From Catellatospora bangladeshensis (GTDB taxonomy: Bacteria; Actinomycetota; Actinomycetes; Mycobacteriales; Micromonosporaceae), in NCBI RefSeq assembly GCF_016862575.1, contig NZ_BONF01000038.1:1-64000 (forward strand): 64,000 bases of DNA. The letters run 5' to 3'. Below the pieces are notes generated by a model. That model was not told where the DNA came from and did not search any database. It was given only the letters and a program-made list of their open reading frames with translations. The stretch's first letter is position 1, and each line of letters begins with the position of its first letter. Positions 47,600-60,205 of this stretch are shown in pieces. A program made the position numbers and the translations under genes.

Positions 47600-48130
47600 T
47601 CAGAGGTACTGGCCGGTGCTGGTGGTCTTGCCCGGCTCCGGGTGCGCGCCCGGCGGCAGGGCGGGCATGTTGCGCATCTGCTCCAGCTGCATGCGTGCGG
47701 CCATCTGCTGCGCGACCAGCGCGGCCTGGATGCCGTGGAACAGGCCCTCCAGCCAGCCGACCAGCTGGGCCTGGGCGATCCGCAGCTCGGCCTCCGACGG
47801 CGTGGTGCCCTCGGTGAACCGGACGGAGATGCGCTCCAGCTCGTCGCGCAGCTCGGGGGACAGGCCGTCCTCCAGCTCGTCCACGGAGCGGCGGTGGATC
47901 TCGACGAGGCGCTTGCGGCCCGCCTCGTCCAGGGGCGCGGCCCGGACCTCCTCCAGCAGCTGCTTGATCATGCTGCCGATGCGCATCACCTTGGCGGGCT
48001 GCTCGATGAGGCGGCTCGGGTCGTCCTCGCGGCCGGTGGCACCGTCCGCGGTCACCTCAACGGTGCCGATGGGACGGCCGTCCGGGCCGACGACCACTAC
48101 GCTCTTCTCGTCGGGCTGCTGCTGGCTCAC
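47600..48130 (-). CDS. bpa: Bacterial proteasome activator Bpa/PafE
   Basis: An ATP-independent ring-shaped activator that opens the 20S proteasome gate in actinobacteria and promotes degradation of unfolded proteins. 176 residues, matching the family (formerly DUF2587). The helical core is LIEQPAKVMRIGSMIKQLLEEVRAAPLDEAGRKRL (about 41-75), with SPELRDELERISVRF and ELRIAQAQLVGWLEGLFHGIQAALVAQQM (about 115-143). The C-terminus is a flexible tail ending GQYL, the residues that dock into proteasome alpha-subunit pockets. The same last four residues end the protein at 51942-52973. No proteasome subunit gene is in the window. Confidence 0.95.
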   Translation of the reverse strand: MSQQQPDEKSVVVVGPDGRPIGTVEVTADGATGREDDPSRLIEQPAKVMRIGSMIKQLLEEVRAAPLDEAGRKRLVEIHRRSVDELEDGLSPELRDELERISVRFTEGTTPSEAELRIAQAQLVGWLEGLFHGIQAALVAQQMAARMQLEQMRNMPALPPGAHPEPGKTTSTGQYL

Positions 48131-48326
48131 GGCGGACCTCCTCAGGCGGCGAACCCACCCATCCTAGATCCCGAGACAAGCGACAATGTTGATCATTGAC
48201 GAGAGTCCCGGGACACGGTAGAACGCCACAGTGGGTCAAAGGAGCACGTGCCCACATCGTTCGGCGTCACCCCTGACGGACGGATCGCGAAATTCGCGTC
48301 CGGCCGATGCCACTCTGGAGGACACA

Positions 48327-49517
48327 TTGGACGGCCTTGACCGTCGCAGGCTGCTTCGTCTGCTGACCGGTGTCGGTGTCGCCGGCGCGACCGGCGGGCT
48401 CGCTGCCTGCGGCAGCTCTTCGACGCCGACCAGCCGGAGCGGCGTCAGCATCGGTCTGCTCGTCCCCGCCACCGGAGCCAACAAGGCCATCGGCGCCGAC
48501 CTCGAACTCGGCTTCCGGCTCTACCTCGACCTGCACGGCGGCATGCTCGGCTCCCGCCCGGTGCAGGTGATCGTCGAGGACGAGGGCGAGACTCCCAAGT
48601 CCGGCGGCGACGCCCTGGGCCGGCTGCTCGACCAGCACGTGCTCGCCGTCGCCGGGGTGGCCAACCCCGACCTGCTGCCCGCCGTCCGCGACAAGGTCGA
48701 GGAGTCGAAGGTCCCGCTGCTGGCCACGCACGCGACCCCGGCCGGCATGCCCAGCTCGAACTTCATCTGGCGCACCGCCTTCCTCAGCGACGAGCCCGCC
48801 CGCGCCATCGCGCTCTACCTGCGCCGCCGGATGGGTGGCAGCCGGGTCAGCCTGATCGGCGTCAGCAGCAGCTCGACCGCCGAGCTGTTCAACGGCTTCC
48901 AGCAGGTCTACGGCACCGGCTTCCAGGAGCCGATCACGGTGCGCGCCGGCATCAAGCCGACCGCGGCCGAGTTCGCCGCGGCCGCCGGCCAGATCAAGAA
49001 CCAGAACCCGCGGGCGATCTTCTGCAACCTGCCCAGCACGCACCTCGACGCCTTCAAGGACGCGCTGCGGAACGCCGGCGGCAGCGCCCTGGCCGGCCTG
49101 CCGCTGTACGCGCCCGGCGTGGTGGCCGAGGGCGTCGCCCTGGACGCGCTCGGCGACGGCGGCCGCGGCCTCTACACCGCGATGCAGTACTCCGCGGACC
49201 TGAACAACGTGGCCAACCACTCCTTCTCGTCGCTGTTCCAGGCGAAGTACCAGCGCACGCCCACCGCGTTCGCGGTCGCCGCCTACGACGCGGCGGCGGT
49301 GCTGGACCAGGCGCTCACGCTGGCCGGGGACGGCACCATCACCTCGCAGCGGATCAACTCGCTGCTGTCCAGCGTCGGCCAGGTGATCAGCCCGCGCGGC
49401 AACTGGCAGTTCAACCAGAACCGCTCGCCGCAGCAGAAGTGGTACCTGCGCAAGGTCGAGAAGGACGGCCCCATCCTGTCGAACGTGCTGATCAGCGACC
49501 TCGCTACCCTCGGGTAG
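48327..49517 (+). CDS. Branched-chain-amino-acid-type ABC transporter substrate-binding lipoprotein
   Basis: A 396-residue periplasmic-binding-fold (type 6) protein. The TTG start at 48327 is chosen because GGAGG lies 5 bases upstream and it begins directly with a twin-arginine-like lipoprotein signal (DRRRLLRLLTGVGVAGATGG, lipobox LAAC). A GTG at 48231 would add 32 unlikely residues. The mature part has VSIGLLVPATGANKAIGADLELGFRLYLD (about 43-70) and GGMLGSRPVQVIVEDEGETP. No permease or ATPase genes are adjacent, so it is an orphan binding protein. An Lrp regulator follows with 1-base overlap, hinting at amino-acid sensing or uptake. Confidence 0.85.
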   Translation: MDGLDRRRLLRLLTGVGVAGATGGLAACGSSSTPTSRSGVSIGLLVPATGANKAIGADLELGFRLYLDLHGGMLGSRPVQVIVEDEGETPKSGGDALGRLLDQHVLAVAGVANPDLLPAVRDKVEESKVPLLATHATPAGMPSSNFIWRTAFLSDEPARAIALYLRRRMGGSRVSLIGVSSSSTAELFNGFQQVYGTGFQEPITVRAGIKPTAAEFAAAAGQIKNQNPRAIFCNLPSTHLDAFKDALRNAGGSALAGLPLYAPGVVAEGVALDALGDGGRGLYTAMQYSADLNNVANHSFSSLFQAKYQRTPTAFAVAAYDAAAVLDQALTLAGDGTITSQRINSLLSSVGQVISPRGNWQFNQNRSPQQKWYLRKVEKDGPILSNVLISDLATLG

Positions 49518-51874: not shown

Positions 51875-51928
51875 GTGAACGAGGCTCCCGCCACGCTGTT
51901 GGGACAACGCGGCGGGAGCTTCGTTCAC
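51875..51928. terminator. Bidirectional terminator, GAGGCTCCCGCC family
   Basis: An 18-bp stem with one G-T pair (51875-51892 with 51911-51928) between converging genes. Arms are closely related to those at 4908-4945 and 15539-15588. Confidence 0.85.
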
Positions 51929-51941
51929 GAAAAGGCAGAGG

Positions 51942-52973
51942 TCAGAGGTACTGGCCGATGCGGGTCTCGGACGGCGGGGTGATGGCGGGCTTGTCGCCCT
52001 CGCCGAAGAAGCGCTTGCCGCCGAACTCGCCGTGCAGCCGGTCGTCCAGCTCGTCGGCCAGGCCGGTCATCACCTGGATCGCCAGCGCCAGGTGGCTGGC
52101 CTGGAAGTCGCGGCCGAACACCGGGATCGAGGCCCACACGGTGCCCGAGGTGCAGTAGAGCCGGCCGATCGGCATCCGGTTGGTCAGCTCGGACAGCTTC
52201 ACGAACAGCTTCTCGCCCGGCTCGATGTCGGTCAGCACCGGCGAGAACACGTCGATCAGCGGCGGCTCGTCGCGCACCCGGACGAACACCATCGCCGAGC
52301 CCGCCCGGATGCCGATGTCGCCGTCACCGTCCACCTGCAGCGCGTCCGGGTCGGTCTTCAGCATCGCGGACACCACGATGCGCACCCGGTCGGCCAGGTC
52401 CAGGCCGCTGGCGTCCAGCGAGTCGATGGACGGCAGGAACGCGTCCACGGTGGACTCGTGCCGGGCGGTGGCCAGCGGCTCGACGGCGACCGGCTCCTCC
52501 TCCTGGTCGTGCGCCTCGTAGACGAGGAACGCCGGGTGCGGCGCACCGTAGACGTCGCGCAGCGTGCGGGTGATGACCGCGGCCAGCGCGTCCGGCGCGC
52601 CGGTCATGCCGAAGTTCTCCCGGGAGCCGGCCACCACGCCGGGCGGCGACCAGCCCAGCGCGACCATCGCGGCGATCGCGGGCCGCTCCAGCCGGAAGCC
52701 CTCGGGCAGATTCGCGTTGCTGACCGCCCGCGCCTGCAGGGTGCCGTCGACGAGGTGCTCCACGCTCACGCCGTACACCGCTGAGCCGGTGCCGGAGGCG
52801 GTCGGGTCGAGCGCCAGCTCCAGCTCGGCCCCGACGGGCAGCGCGGGCAGGACCCCGGCCAGCGCGCGGGCGAAGTCACGCCACGCCTCGGCGACCTTCG
52901 CATGCAGGTCCGCGGTGGTGGGCTCGTCCAGCAGCCCGGCCTCGGCCAGGCCCGGGTTCGACAGTTCCGACAT
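51942..52973 (-). CDS. TY-Chap/YbjN-like protein with C-terminal GQYL proteasome-type motif
   Basis: A 343-residue cytosolic protein. Start 52973 is supported by GAGGAGG with 7-base spacing. The N-terminal part (about 20-160) resembles the TY-Chap N-terminal domain: EAWRDFARALAGVLPALPVGAELELAL, RLERPAIAAMVALGWSPP and ITRTLRDVYGAPHPAFLVYEAHD. The second part (about 190-325) resembles YbjN/type III secretion chaperone-like folds: LADRVRIVVSAMLKTDPDALQVDGDGDIGIRAGSAMVFVRV, then LFVKLSELTNRMPIGRLYC and HLALAIQVMTGLADELDDRL. A flexible tail (about 325-343) ends ETRIGQYL. GQYL is the proteasome-docking C-terminus of Bpa and of Mpa/ARC-type activators, so binding of the 20S proteasome is a testable inference. 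It lies downstream of the mobA-DUF6457 pair. Confidence 0.8.
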   Translation of the reverse strand: MSELSNPGLAEAGLLDEPTTADLHAKVAEAWRDFARALAGVLPALPVGAELELALDPTASGTGSAVYGVSVEHLVDGTLQARAVSNANLPEGFRLERPAIAAMVALGWSPPGVVAGSRENFGMTGAPDALAAVITRTLRDVYGAPHPAFLVYEAHDQEEEPVAVEPLATARHESTVDAFLPSIDSLDASGLDLADRVRIVVSAMLKTDPDALQVDGDGDIGIRAGSAMVFVRVRDEPPLIDVFSPVLTDIEPGEKLFVKLSELTNRMPIGRLYCTSGTVWASIPVFGRDFQASHLALAIQVMTGLADELDDRLHGEFGGKRFFGEGDKPAITPPSETRIGQYL

Positions 52974-56189: not shown

Positions 56190-58799
56190 CTAGAGGCGGG
56201 GGTCGGTGGGTTCGGATTCGCTCGCGAGGATCGCGAAGACGAGTTCGTGTACGCGCCAGAGCGGCCCGTCGCGGCCGACCGTGTCCAGGGCGGCGAGGCC
56301 CAGGCCGTGCTCGCGCAGGGCGAGCGCGCGCTTGCGGCCGAGCTTGCGCTGGCGGAGGCGGGCGAGCTGGTCCGGCTCGGTGTAGGAGGGCCCGTAGATG
56401 ATGCGCAGGTACTCCCGGCCGCGGCACTTCACGCCGGGCTGCACCAGGCCTTTCGCGCCGCGCACGGAGAGCCCGGCGTACGGCTTCACCACCATGCCCT
56501 CGCCGCCCGCGCCGGTCAGCGCGAGCCACCAGTCCGTCGCCTCGGCGATCGCGCCGTCGGAGGCGTCCCCGGTCAGGTCGAGCACCAGGCGGCGGGTCGG
56601 GGTGAACGCCGCCGGATCGGCCGCGACCAGCCGGTCGGCCACGGACAGGTGCCAGCCGTGGTCGGCGTCGGTGAACGACCGGCCCTCCGCCGCGAGCACC
56701 GCGAACGGGGCGAGCGTGATCCCGTCGACCCCTTCGACGGGGGCGACGTACCGGCGGTAGGCGTCGGTGAAGGCGTGCACGTCACGCAGGACGCCGCCGA
56801 GCCGCTCACGCTGGGCGGCCACGTCCAGCCCGCGGGCGGCGGCCACGTCGAGCACCTCCAGGGCGGCGGGCAGTGCGGCCCGGCCGGCGGCGCCGACCGC
56901 GGCGTACTGGTGGATCAGCGGCTGCGCCTTGGCCGACCAGGGCAGCAGCTCGCAGTCGAGCAGCAGCCAGTCGGTGTCCAGCTCGTCCCACAGCCCGGCC
57001 GCGGTGACCGCGGCGCGCACCTTGGCCAGCAGCTGCTCGGTGCGGTCCGGGTCGAAGAAGGGCCGCCCGGTGCGCGTGTAGATCACGCCGGTGGCGCCGT
57101 CGTCGACGAAGCGCTTGGCGGCGACGGCCGCGTCCTTGCAGACCAGCACGACCGCGCGGGAACCCATGTGCTTCTCCTCGCAGACCACCCGGTCCACCCC
57201 GGCGGCGCGCAGGTCGGCCAGCGCCTCGGCCGGGTGCTCCAGGTAGCCGTCCACGGCCGAGGTCGAGGACGGGGCCATGGTCGGCGGCAGCCAGAGCAGC
57301 CAGCGCGGGTCGACCGCGAACCGGCTCATCACCTCCAGCGCCGCCGCGGAGTGCTCGGCGGGCACGGTAACGGTGCCGTACGGCGTCTGCACGTGCCGGC
57401 GCCCGGTGACCTCGGACAGCCACAGCGCCCCCGCCGCACGATCGGGCACCGGGGCGGCCCGCAGCGGGCGGGCCGGCTCGTAGTACCGCTCGGTGGCGGT
57501 GACCTCGACCAGCTCCCGCTCGGGGTAGCGCAGCGCGGTCAGCTTGCCGCCGAACACGGCTCCGGTGTCCAGGCAGATGGTGTTGTTGACCCACTCCGGG
57601 ACGACCGTGGGCGTGTGACCGTAGACGACCATGGCACGGCCGCGGTACTCCTGCGCCCACGGGTAGCGCACGGGCAGGCCGAACTCGTCGGTCTCGCCGG
57701 TGGTGTCGCCGTACATGGCGAAGGAGCGCACCCGGCCCGACGCCCGGCCGTGGTAGGCCTCCTTCAGCCCGGCGTGCGCGACCACCAGCCGGCCGCCGTC
57801 CAGCACGTAGTGGCTGATCAGGCCGTCCAGGAACGGAGCCAGGCCGTCGACCGGGTCGGCCGCCAGCTGCGCGACGGTCTCGGCGAGACCGTGGGTGAGC
57901 TGCACCTGCCGCCCGCGCAGGTGGCGCAGCAGCTTGTTCTCGTGGTTGCCGGCCACGCACAGCGCCCGGCCTCCCGCGATCATGTTCATGACCAGGCGCA
58001 GCACGCCGGGCGAGTCCGGCCCGCGGTCCACCAGGTCGCCGACGAACACGGCGGTACGCCCCGCGGGGTGGCTCGCGTCCACCGCCCGCCCGGACGCGTC
58101 CCGGGTCAGCTCCCAGCCGAGCGCGGTGAGCAGCCGCTCCAGCTCGGCCCGGCAGCCGTGCACGTCGCCGACCAGGTCGAACGGGCCGGTCAGCTCGGTG
58201 CGGTCGTTGAACAGCTTCTCGTAGCGCAGCTCGACGGCGTCGGGATCCTTCACCACGTACACCTTGCGGAAGCCCTCGCGGGCCAGCCGGTTCAGTGAGT
58301 GCCGCAGGTCGCGGTGCTGGCGGCGCAGCACCTCGCGGCCGAACGCCCGGTCGGGCCGGGCCTGCGTGCGCTCCCAGCACAGCGGCTCGGGCGTGTCCAC
58401 GACGATCGCCACCGGCAGGACGTCGTGCGCTTTGGCGACCTCGACCAGGGCGGTGCGGGCGTGCTGCTGCACGTTCGTCGCGTCGACCACGGTGAGCCGC
58501 CCGGCCCGCAGCCGCTTGCCCGCGACCAGGTGCAGCACCTCGAAGGCGTCCTTCGTGACCGACTGGTCGTTCTCGTCGTCGGCGAGCAGCCCCCGGAACG
58601 CGTCACTGGACAGCACCTGGGTGGGCAGGAAGTGCCGGCGCGCGAAGGTGGACTTGCCCGATCCGGAGATGCCGACCAGCACGACCAGCGACAGCTCGGG
58701 CAGCGTGACGACGGTGGGATCACCAGCCCGGCCCGTCCGCTCGGCGAAGGTGCCGGCGGCGGCCGGCTCGGTCGTGGTGGGTTCGTCGTGCTCGGTCAT
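56190..58799 (-). CDS. pnkp: Bacterial polynucleotide kinase-phosphatase-ligase Pnkp (RNA repair)
   Basis: An 869-residue three-domain RNA-repair enzyme. The 5'-kinase has P-loop GISGSGKST (about 40). A binuclear metallophosphatase (GDVHGC at about 210, GDLVDRGPDS, AGNHENKL) follows. The C-terminal adenylyltransferase/ligase has the motif I Lys in EEKHMGSRAV (about 540) and MVVKPY (motif V). In characterised systems it forms a complex with Hen1, heals broken tRNA ends and seals them, with Hen1 required for ligation. The ATG at 58799 overlaps the hen1 stop by four bases (ATGA), fixing the start and coupling the genes. Confidence 0.96.
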   Translation of the reverse strand: MTEHDEPTTTEPAAAGTFAERTGRAGDPTVVTLPELSLVVLVGISGSGKSTFARRHFLPTQVLSSDAFRGLLADDENDQSVTKDAFEVLHLVAGKRLRAGRLTVVDATNVQQHARTALVEVAKAHDVLPVAIVVDTPEPLCWERTQARPDRAFGREVLRRQHRDLRHSLNRLAREGFRKVYVVKDPDAVELRYEKLFNDRTELTGPFDLVGDVHGCRAELERLLTALGWELTRDASGRAVDASHPAGRTAVFVGDLVDRGPDSPGVLRLVMNMIAGGRALCVAGNHENKLLRHLRGRQVQLTHGLAETVAQLAADPVDGLAPFLDGLISHYVLDGGRLVVAHAGLKEAYHGRASGRVRSFAMYGDTTGETDEFGLPVRYPWAQEYRGRAMVVYGHTPTVVPEWVNNTICLDTGAVFGGKLTALRYPERELVEVTATERYYEPARPLRAAPVPDRAAGALWLSEVTGRRHVQTPYGTVTVPAEHSAAALEVMSRFAVDPRWLLWLPPTMAPSSTSAVDGYLEHPAEALADLRAAGVDRVVCEEKHMGSRAVVLVCKDAAVAAKRFVDDGATGVIYTRTGRPFFDPDRTEQLLAKVRAAVTAAGLWDELDTDWLLLDCELLPWSAKAQPLIHQYAAVGAAGRAALPAALEVLDVAAARGLDVAAQRERLGGVLRDVHAFTDAYRRYVAPVEGVDGITLAPFAVLAAEGRSFTDADHGWHLSVADRLVAADPAAFTPTRRLVLDLTGDASDGAIAEATDWWLALTGAGGEGMVVKPYAGLSVRGAKGLVQPGVKCRGREYLRIIYGPSYTEPDQLARLRQRKLGRKRALALREHGLGLAALDTVGRDGPLWRVHELVFAILASESEPTDPRL

Positions 58800-60205
58800 G
58801 CGGGCACCTCCTCGGCGACGGCGGTCTCGGTCTTCGTGAACAGGGCCAGCTGGGTCGGCGGGCCGACCTCGGGATCGGCGTCGCCGACGTCGCGCAGCGC
58901 ATACGCGTAGCCGTAGTCGGCGGCGACCCGGTCGCACCAGGCGGTGAACTCGGCGCGGGTCCACTCGAAGCGGTGGTCGTCGTGCCGGTGGCCGCCCTCG
59001 GCCAGGCCCTCGTAGCGCACGTTGTACTCGACGTTGGGCGTGGTCACCACGACCGCGCCCGGCTTGGCGTCGCCGAACACCGCGGCGCACAGCGCGGGCA
59101 GCCGGGGTGCGTCCAGGTGCTCGATGACCTCCATCAGCACGGCGGCGTCGTACCCGCGCAGCCGCTCGTCGACGTAGGTCAGCGCGGACTGGATCAGCTT
59201 GATCCGGGCGCGCTGCCGGTCGGGCAGCCGCTTGAGCCGCAGCCGCCGCTCGGCGATCTCCAGCACCTTCGGCGACACGTCCGCGCCGACGATCTCGGTG
59301 TAGCGCCGGTCCCGGATCAGGTCACCCAGCAGCGCGCCCCCGCCGCAGCCCAGGTCGAGGACCCGGGTCGCGCCGGTGTCGGCCAGCGCGGCGAGCACGG
59401 CGGCGCGCCGGCGTACGTTCAGCGGCTTGGTCTTCTCCACCGCGGGGCCCTCGGCGACGGAGTCGTCGGCGGGCGCCTCCTCCAGCGGAGCCAGCGCCGC
59501 GTCCGCCTTCGCGGCCAGCGCCCGGCTGTGCGCCAGGTAGCGCCGGATGATCAGCGCCCGTTCCGGGTGCCCGGCCAGCCAGCCGTCGCCGGCGCGCAGC
59601 AGCTTCTCGATCTCGTCGGGCGCGACCCAGTAGTGCTTGGCGTCGTCCAGCACGGGCAGCAGCACGTAGAGGTGGTTCAGCGCGTCGGCCAGGCGCAGCT
59701 CGCCGGTGAGCGTCAGGTCGACGTAACGGCTGTCGCCCCACTCCGGAAACGCCGGGTCGAGTGGCAGCACGGTGCCCCGCACCGTCCAGCCGAGCGGCGT
59801 GAACAGGCGCTCGGCCAGCTTCAGCCCGCCCTTGGCGCGCAGCGACGGCACGCCGATCTCCAGCGGGATCGCGGTCGCGGCCAGCTCGGGCCGGTCCTTG
59901 GAGACACCGCGCGCGGCGGTGCGGAAGACGCGGTTCAGCGCGGCGGCGAGCAGGCTGGACGCCGCGTACGGCCGGTCGTTGACGTACTGGTTGAGCTGCT
60001 GCCCGTCGGCGCGGGTGTCGGCCAGCCGTTGCGGGTCGATCTCGACGAGCAGCGCGGCGGTGCAGCGCTGCTCGCTCGCCTCCGGGTACAGCACGGTGGC
60101 CGTACCGCTGCTGAGGTCGAAGGTGTGCACCCGGTCCGGGTGCTTCACCAGCAGGAAGCCGAGGTCGGTGGCGGGACGGTGCGTGGTCGAGAGGGTCAGC
60201 AACAC
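58796..60205 (-). CDS. hen1: 3'-terminal RNA ribose 2'-O-methyltransferase Hen1
   Basis: A 469-residue partner of Pnkp. The N-terminal half (about 1-240, MLLTLSTTHRPATDLGFLLVKHPDRVHTF) is the region that activates the Pnkp ligase in known systems. The C-terminal methyltransferase has the AdoMet motif LDLGCGGGALL (about 280) and the Hen1 metal ligands EVIEHLD (about 355) and HDDHRFEWTRAEF (about 395). It methylates the 2'-OH at the break so the repaired RNA resists a second cut. GTG start at 60205; divergent from moaA by 64 bases. No ribotoxin gene is adjacent. Confidence 0.96.
   Translation of the reverse strand: MLLTLSTTHRPATDLGFLLVKHPDRVHTFDLSSGTATVLYPEASEQRCTAALLVEIDPQRLADTRADGQQLNQYVNDRPYAASSLLAAALNRVFRTAARGVSKDRPELAATAIPLEIGVPSLRAKGGLKLAERLFTPLGWTVRGTVLPLDPAFPEWGDSRYVDLTLTGELRLADALNHLYVLLPVLDDAKHYWVAPDEIEKLLRAGDGWLAGHPERALIIRRYLAHSRALAAKADAALAPLEEAPADDSVAEGPAVEKTKPLNVRRRAAVLAALADTGATRVLDLGCGGGALLGDLIRDRRYTEIVGADVSPKVLEIAERRLRLKRLPDRQRARIKLIQSALTYVDERLRGYDAAVLMEVIEHLDAPRLPALCAAVFGDAKPGAVVVTTPNVEYNVRYEGLAEGGHRHDDHRFEWTRAEFTAWCDRVAADYGYAYALRDVGDADPEVGPPTQLALFTKTETAVAEEVPA

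Follow-up and report, generated by a model that had tools for sequence, protein, structure and literature searches.

The window analysed here comprises 64,000 nucleotides of contig NZ_BONF01000038.1 from Catellatospora bangladeshensis (Micromonosporaceae; genome 8.8 Mb, 99.69% complete). Its minus strand carries an open reading frame (ORF) that begins with ATG at 52973, just 3' of a GAGGAGG ribosome-binding site, and stops at 51942. The encoded protein joins two TY-Chap domains to the C-terminus SETRIGQYL, and is called the TY-Chap protein below. Also on this strand, at a distance of 4 kb, is the gene for the proteasome activator Bpa (PafE). Features are as follows (E, expectation value; pLDDT, predicted local distance difference test):

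51942..52973, minus strand: TY-Chap3 + TY-Chap1 protein with a GQYL end, 343 residues (translation; Pfam; orthologues in 89/101 family genomes)
52524..52889, minus strand: TY-Chap3 domain, residues 29–150 (PF22552, E 1.1e-24; AlphaFold2 model of residues 1–176)
52002..52400, minus strand: TY-Chap1 domain of type III secretion chaperone/YbjN fold, residues 192–324 (PF22551, E 1.5e-42)
51957..52004, minus strand: variable linker, predicted to be disordered, residues 324–339 (pLDDT; linker comparison across orthologues)
51945..51956, minus strand: putative GQYL docking tail, residues 340–343 (G, Y and L invariant in 133/133 distinct orthologues)
47600..48130, minus strand: Bpa/PafE, neighbouring proteasome activator, ending TSTGQYL (PF10759, E 1.1e-72)

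The domain composition given in the original prediction—a TY-Chap-like N-terminal domain followed by one akin to YbjN and secretion chaperones—is borne out by the profiles, PF22551 and PF22552 scoring 144.8 and 87.8 bits against a curated cut-off of 27 and placing the protein among the TY-Chap families. At E 0.01, the Pfam scan returned TY-Chap1 and TY-Chap3 only (no PF10759, AAA or PAC2-family match), and an NCBIfam scan returned no match. The modelled C-terminal domain resembles secretion chaperones and YbjN proteins, as befits the type III secretion chaperone/YbjN fold of TY-Chap1, and its profile matches the solved protein 2plg (E 3.9e-8). Modelled alone (residues 1–176), the N-terminal domain reaches a mean pLDDT of 88.0; a permuted TY-chaperone fold is expected here, and structure comparison gave no clear solved match. 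A full-length model (39 sequences) has a mean pLDDT of 65.5, falling below 50 for residues 316–343, such that linker and tail are predicted to be disordered, in agreement with the flexible segment that had been proposed ahead of the motif. Type III secretion chaperones act as dimers, and the two chaperone domains of the TY-Chap chain may form a pseudo-dimer. Residues 79–152 of the query also have a further, weak TY-Chap-like hit elsewhere in the genome (C46:11140-11349; 43% identity, E 0.003).

Conservation of the C-terminus was followed in two partly overlapping sets. Among 101 Micromonosporaceae genomes searched (orthologue threshold E 1e-10), 89 have a full-length orthologue, and all 89 proteins end G-x-Y-L (GMYL 78, GQYL 10, GLYL 1). 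The 80 named loci, being the best 80 of 203 relatives, likewise all carry the tail (GMYL 71, GQYL 9); the closest named matches in this subset are from Catellatospora (85–91% identity), followed by other Micromonosporaceae genera. Removing rows with identical last 120 residues left 133 distinct orthologues, two of them from family-level group f21, none of which departs from G, Y or L at these three positions; x is taken by M in 119, Q in 11, G in 2 and L in 1. The conserved feature is thus G-x-Y-L, mostly TGMYL, rather than GQYL as such: the proposed check of whether homologues keep the GQYL end comes out positive for G, Y and L, with x varying and M commonest there.

The sequence leading up to the motif behaves differently. 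Linkers span 12–21 residues with abundant G, E, D and P, and take 123 distinct forms among the 133 orthologues; counted back from the C-terminus, residues 7 to 16 have entropies of 1.8 to 3.5 bits, whereas G, Y and L have 0. T is favoured at position 5 (107/133) and R at position 6 (112/133) of the same count, and a T or P often directly precedes the motif in the TY-Chap protein, Bpa and ARC. Codon usage in the same orthologues is varied throughout the tail, with GGC92/GGG32/GGT6/GGA3 for glycine, TAC108/TAT25 for tyrosine, CTC86/CTG37/CTA5/TTG5 for leucine and all three stops in use. This synonymous variation, coupled with linkers that are nearly all different, argues that selection acts on the protein tail.

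A three-residue HbYX ending (hydrophobic residue, tyrosine, any residue) is found in 0.72% of bacterial proteins according to the ProEnd study (PMC11475706), common enough that the evidence here lies in conservation and not in a single match. Only two ORFs of at least 60 residues in the window end GxYL, the TY-Chap gene and bpa. Among a further 10,053 distinct ORFs of at least 100 residues in the examined loci, one does so, a background in which many ORFs are not genes. Neighbouring gene ends served as a further control: the C-terminal four residues are variable in Lrp, DUF6457 and beta-propeller genes and in a phosphotransferase-like gene, and partly so in MobA and serS. The rows for HAD, DUF4192 and the polynucleotide kinase were left out of this control, their frames being approximate. 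Given the tail conservation and the ORF background, a chance match was rejected; the observed tail is real and beyond chance.

The sole background ORF, L177:9802-10266, is out of frame with and overlaps an intact bpa (L177:9651-10178), running 88 bases past it to end APGQYL. This ORF is unlikely to be a real gene and may be a repeat of a gene end. A frame-disrupted bpa was considered and dropped, bpa being intact there with its GQYL end.

The two gene products in the window share GQYL exactly, as had been claimed, and differ in the residue just before it, which is I in the TY-Chap protein and T in Bpa. Their terminal DNA is common over 16 bases, a correction of the 15 claimed earlier; little weight attaches to this identity, since all four glycine, both tyrosine and four leucine codons occur at these sites among orthologues. 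In genomes with both genes, the Bpa and TY-Chap match starts are at most 10 kb apart in 56/87, at least 31 kb apart on the same contig (linear count) in 12/87 and on different contigs in 19/87, and the tail is kept where bpa is elsewhere. When within the fetched locus, bpa is on the same strand as the TY-Chap gene in 68/72 cases and downstream of it in 70/72. MobA-like, DUF6457 (PF20058 match), Lrp and beta-propeller genes belong to the same conserved block; since the neighbourhood is kept as a block, the nearby bpa may be passive, reflecting plain synteny. Overlap with the downstream gene was rejected, the intergenic region holding a hairpin-like stretch at about 51884–51919 instead. Elsewhere on the minus strand, the window encodes a bacterial RNA-repair pair, a polynucleotide kinase-phosphatase-ligase (56190–58808; PNKP_ligase, E 4.7e-167) and Hen1 (58796–60190; Hen1_L, E 8.9e-107).

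Which tail residues vary is informative in light of known docking. Bpa Y173 and L174 contact R26 and K52 of the PrcA alpha subunit, as described in PMC11953334. Alignment to solved actinobacterial alpha subunits matches these to R24 and K50 of PrcA from C. bangladeshensis itself, with a two-residue offset, and so the host possesses a PrcAB with the Y/L-contacting pocket residues (roles taken from PMC11953334). The Q of GQYL is given as freely changeable or non-essential in PMC6017811 and PMC12288473, both citing Jastrab 2015. The known partners keep GQYL, ARC in 30/30 loci read (29 distinct; from 41 genomes searched) and Bpa in 73/73 distinct complete ORFs; the usual ending of the TY-Chap protein is GMYL, likewise an Hb-Y-X motif. 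With the docking-relevant residues fixed and the dispensable one drifting, the pattern points to the proteasome.

Proteasome presence, judged by a PF00227 match, was checked in 96 genomes with a tailed TY-Chap protein (89 from the family, 7 others) and found in 96/96; within family-level group f11, genome G110 has one match (one subunit) and G152 two. The suggestion that the tail is limited to prcA/prcB genomes agrees with this count; with a proteasome in nearly every tested genome that has a TY-Chap relative, the comparison is weak. Proteasome matches are present in all 101 family genomes, the group in which the rate for genomes lacking TY-Chap was measured, and in 28/29 class-draw genomes with a relative from outside the family; the exception is G342 (81% complete), whose relative lacks the tail. 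The contrast set of tail-less relatives without a proteasome is small, namely G342 and one gammaproteobacterial plasmid. Gammaproteobacteria are not known to have a 20S proteasome.

To survey the scaffold more widely, 394 genomes were drawn from the class (threshold E 1e-6), of which 32 have a TY-Chap relative and 6 of these the tail (three from the family itself, f1; two f21; one f11). A draw from the phylum gave 8/396 genomes with a match, four already in earlier sets; the four new ones, all with proteasome matches, have ends GAYL (f49), GGYL and AGYI (both f55) and PDWT (f98). GxYL ends are found in four other family-level groups, in 2/2 orthologues of f21, 3/3 of f11 (all three genomes with AGGYL), 1/1 of f49 and 1/2 of f55. 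The AGYI protein (L285, f55), from a proteasome-bearing genome, may carry a docking tail that has drifted or degenerated. Genome G142 encodes one tailed and one tail-less TY-Chap1 protein. A tree of 42 TY-Chap1 domains requires 5 changes of the tail label, compared with 14.1 in shuffles (L285 scored as tail-less); well-supported branches force at least two changes, with long branches leaving the number of origins unsure. These patterns suggest that the tail was gained or lost as a module on one scaffold.

Phages yielded no TY-Chap relative at E 1e-5, and plasmids a single record, from the methanotrophic gammaproteobacterium Candidatus Methylocalor cossyra. This homologue (L302:4031-4981) has TY-Chap3 and TY-Chap1 domains, with 26.4% identity over 90%, and ends NAYKH, lacking the tail. 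The plasmid gene is close to a transposase and a serine recombinase, suggesting that the chaperone type can move between phyla.

Taken together, the best explanation in our view, and a likely one, is that this soluble protein of chaperone fold docks on the 20S proteasome and delivers clients or opens the gate. Confidence differs between its parts. Docking itself is very probable from the sequence pattern. Binding of client segments, predicted by analogy with the domain families, is somewhat favoured. As for what docking would achieve, the balance between delivery or gate opening and some other docking role is even. Mechanistically, the two TY-chaperone domains of a chain would hold client proteins by peptide segments that are unfolded or exposed, while the disordered 12–21-residue linker would give G-x-Y-L access to the same inter-subunit pockets of PrcA as are occupied by ARC/Mpa and Bpa. 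Pocket occupancy by one or more tails would tether the client-loaded chaperone over the 20S pore and may open the gate. Such a route would be both ATP-independent and Pup-independent, as with archaeal PbaB and its disordered HbYX tail.

A number of observations weigh against this explanation. The TY-Chap gene is missing (at E 1e-10) from 12 of the 101 family genomes, or 10/89 of those of good quality, all of which bear a proteasome; the gene is hence not core. In C. bangladeshensis it is on a different contig from ARC/PrcBA (C38 versus C45), and its sequence gives no evidence of the ring that known activators form. In the class draw, the 26 relatives beyond the six tailed genomes provided 23 readable ends (the ORFs of G452 and G339 extend beyond the locus edge, and G214 has no locus) and the tail is seen in 0/23, 22 of these being in proteasome-bearing genomes. 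Twelve of the 23 stop within 18 residues of the domain, and 10 others have at least 94 residues after it. Within the family itself there are 14 second matches; the two whose ends were read, the minus-strand TY-Chap1 paralogues L099:2581-3798 and L100:2575-3882, are tail-less, with weak TPR-like repeats following the domain. The scaffold alone, then, does not demand a tail. Lastly, the periplasmic-binding-protein neighbour (window 48231–49517) departs from most neighbours in ending ATLG in 70/82 loci, which shows that C-termini are conserved for other reasons too.

Among other explanations, an origin of the tail by chance, or as a DNA end copied from the neighbouring bpa, draws on the 16 identical terminal bases and the 4 kb distance between the genes. 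Family-wide conservation refutes copying as a full explanation, synonymous sites vary, the ending is mostly GMYL against the GQYL of Bpa, and the tail is retained in the 12 genomes with bpa more than 30 kb off on the same contig; on the same grounds a DNA-level element or gene conversion from bpa was rejected, and we regard this origin as extremely improbable. The tail might otherwise bind a non-proteasome receptor such as a PDZ domain, a Clp-type adaptor or a partner chaperone, its likeness to GQYL being convergent. Other receptors also use short C-terminal motifs with a hydrophobic end, and the 22 proteasome-bearing genomes with tail-less TY-Chap relatives would fit. Against it stand the fixation of the residues needed for 20S docking (Y and L, with G) and the drift of the dispensable one, the T or P common before the motif as in Bpa and ARC, the proteasome in every tailed genome checked and the tail-less state of the gammaproteobacterial homologue; it appears to us distinctly unlikely.

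A stronger competitor accepts docking on the alpha-ring and changes its purpose, the protein acting as an assembly chaperone, plug or competitor that caps immature or idle core particles in the manner of PAC1-PAC2, or displaces ARC and Bpa. HbYX tails have such a role in PAC1, and one is reported for archaeal PbaA (PMC3605417); the sequence shows no sign of a ring, the dominant MYL ending is a strict Hb-Y-X, and regulation of activator docking is, per a 2025 review, undescribed (PMC12288473). Core assembly evidently does not need the TY-Chap protein in the 12 of 101 proteasome-bearing family genomes without the gene, and described relatives of the scaffold are of the peptide-binding chaperone type (PMC9503650). 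We rate a role in assembly or plugging as rather unlikely, ahead of a non-proteasome receptor, and keep client delivery or gate opening as the preferred account.

By extension, there is perhaps an even chance that tailed TY-chaperones constitute a class, so far unrecognised, of 20S partners that are neither rings nor ATPases, in several Actinomycetota lineages, the tail having been gained or lost several times, as a convergent counterpart of PbaB and PAC1-PAC2 that hands over clients without Pup or ATP. On that same even footing, the class would have been overlooked because proteasome work uses mycobacteria: in family f2, which we take to be Mycobacteriaceae, six class-draw genomes have a TY-Chap relative and 0/6 have the tail.

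The TY-Chap protein probably assists the bacterial proteasome as a hitherto undescribed partner. The bacterial 20S partners named in the literature, so far as its text was available, are only ARC/Mpa, Bpa/PafE and Cpa. As the original prediction had supposed, no description of such a protein was found in the mainly open-access literature searched (most subscription papers and preprints falling outside it), be it a TY-Chap-type proteasome partner or a link between YbjN and the proteasome. ProEnd catalogues HbYX proteins, 982 of them in Actinobacteria, and its main text mentions neither YbjN nor Micromonospora; its database could contain such proteins unremarked (PMC11475706). From the literature searched, a docking tail known from activators is here placed on a scaffold not known to carry one.

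Several known systems share aspects of this arrangement. Bpa/PafE, a neighbour in many genomes, is likewise a non-ATPase with a conserved domain, a variable stretch of 15–20 residues and a conserved GQYL, an organization described for Bpa in PMC4254994; it differs in being a dodecameric ring with PF10759, for which the TY-Chap protein has no match at E 0.01. Mpa/ARC also end a flexible segment with GQYL, but are AAA+ rings that unfold Pup-tagged substrates, and the TY-Chap protein has no AAA match. Cpa (Cdc48-like) is an additional actinobacterial proteasome partner, albeit an AAA+ ATPase without an HbYX/GQYL end, as described in PMC6017811. Proteins with TY-Chap1 and TY-Chap3 (PF22551, PF22552) have the same domains and are predicted peptide-binding chaperones; TY-Chap1 to 3 are presented as predicted chaperones in ADP-ribose-linked conflict systems, with no proteasome link mentioned in the portion of PMC9503650 available. 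The closest functional parallel is archaeal PbaB, which is grouped here with eukaryotic PAC1-PAC2; these are non-ATPase and chaperone-like with a disordered HbYX tail, and differ in their PAC2-family domain (no match in the TY-Chap protein) and their occurrence in archaea and eukaryotes. PbaB is a non-ATPase tetramer whose last 19–23 residues, including HbYX, are disordered, and which activates 20S and holds unfolded protein (PMC3605417). If our explanation is true, one more docking protein, built on a chaperone scaffold, would mean a new proteasome route, or a new control on docking, and Pup-independent substrate delivery would become directly testable in soil actinomycetes; beside PbaB and PAC1-PAC2, there would be another chaperone-like protein with a docking tail.
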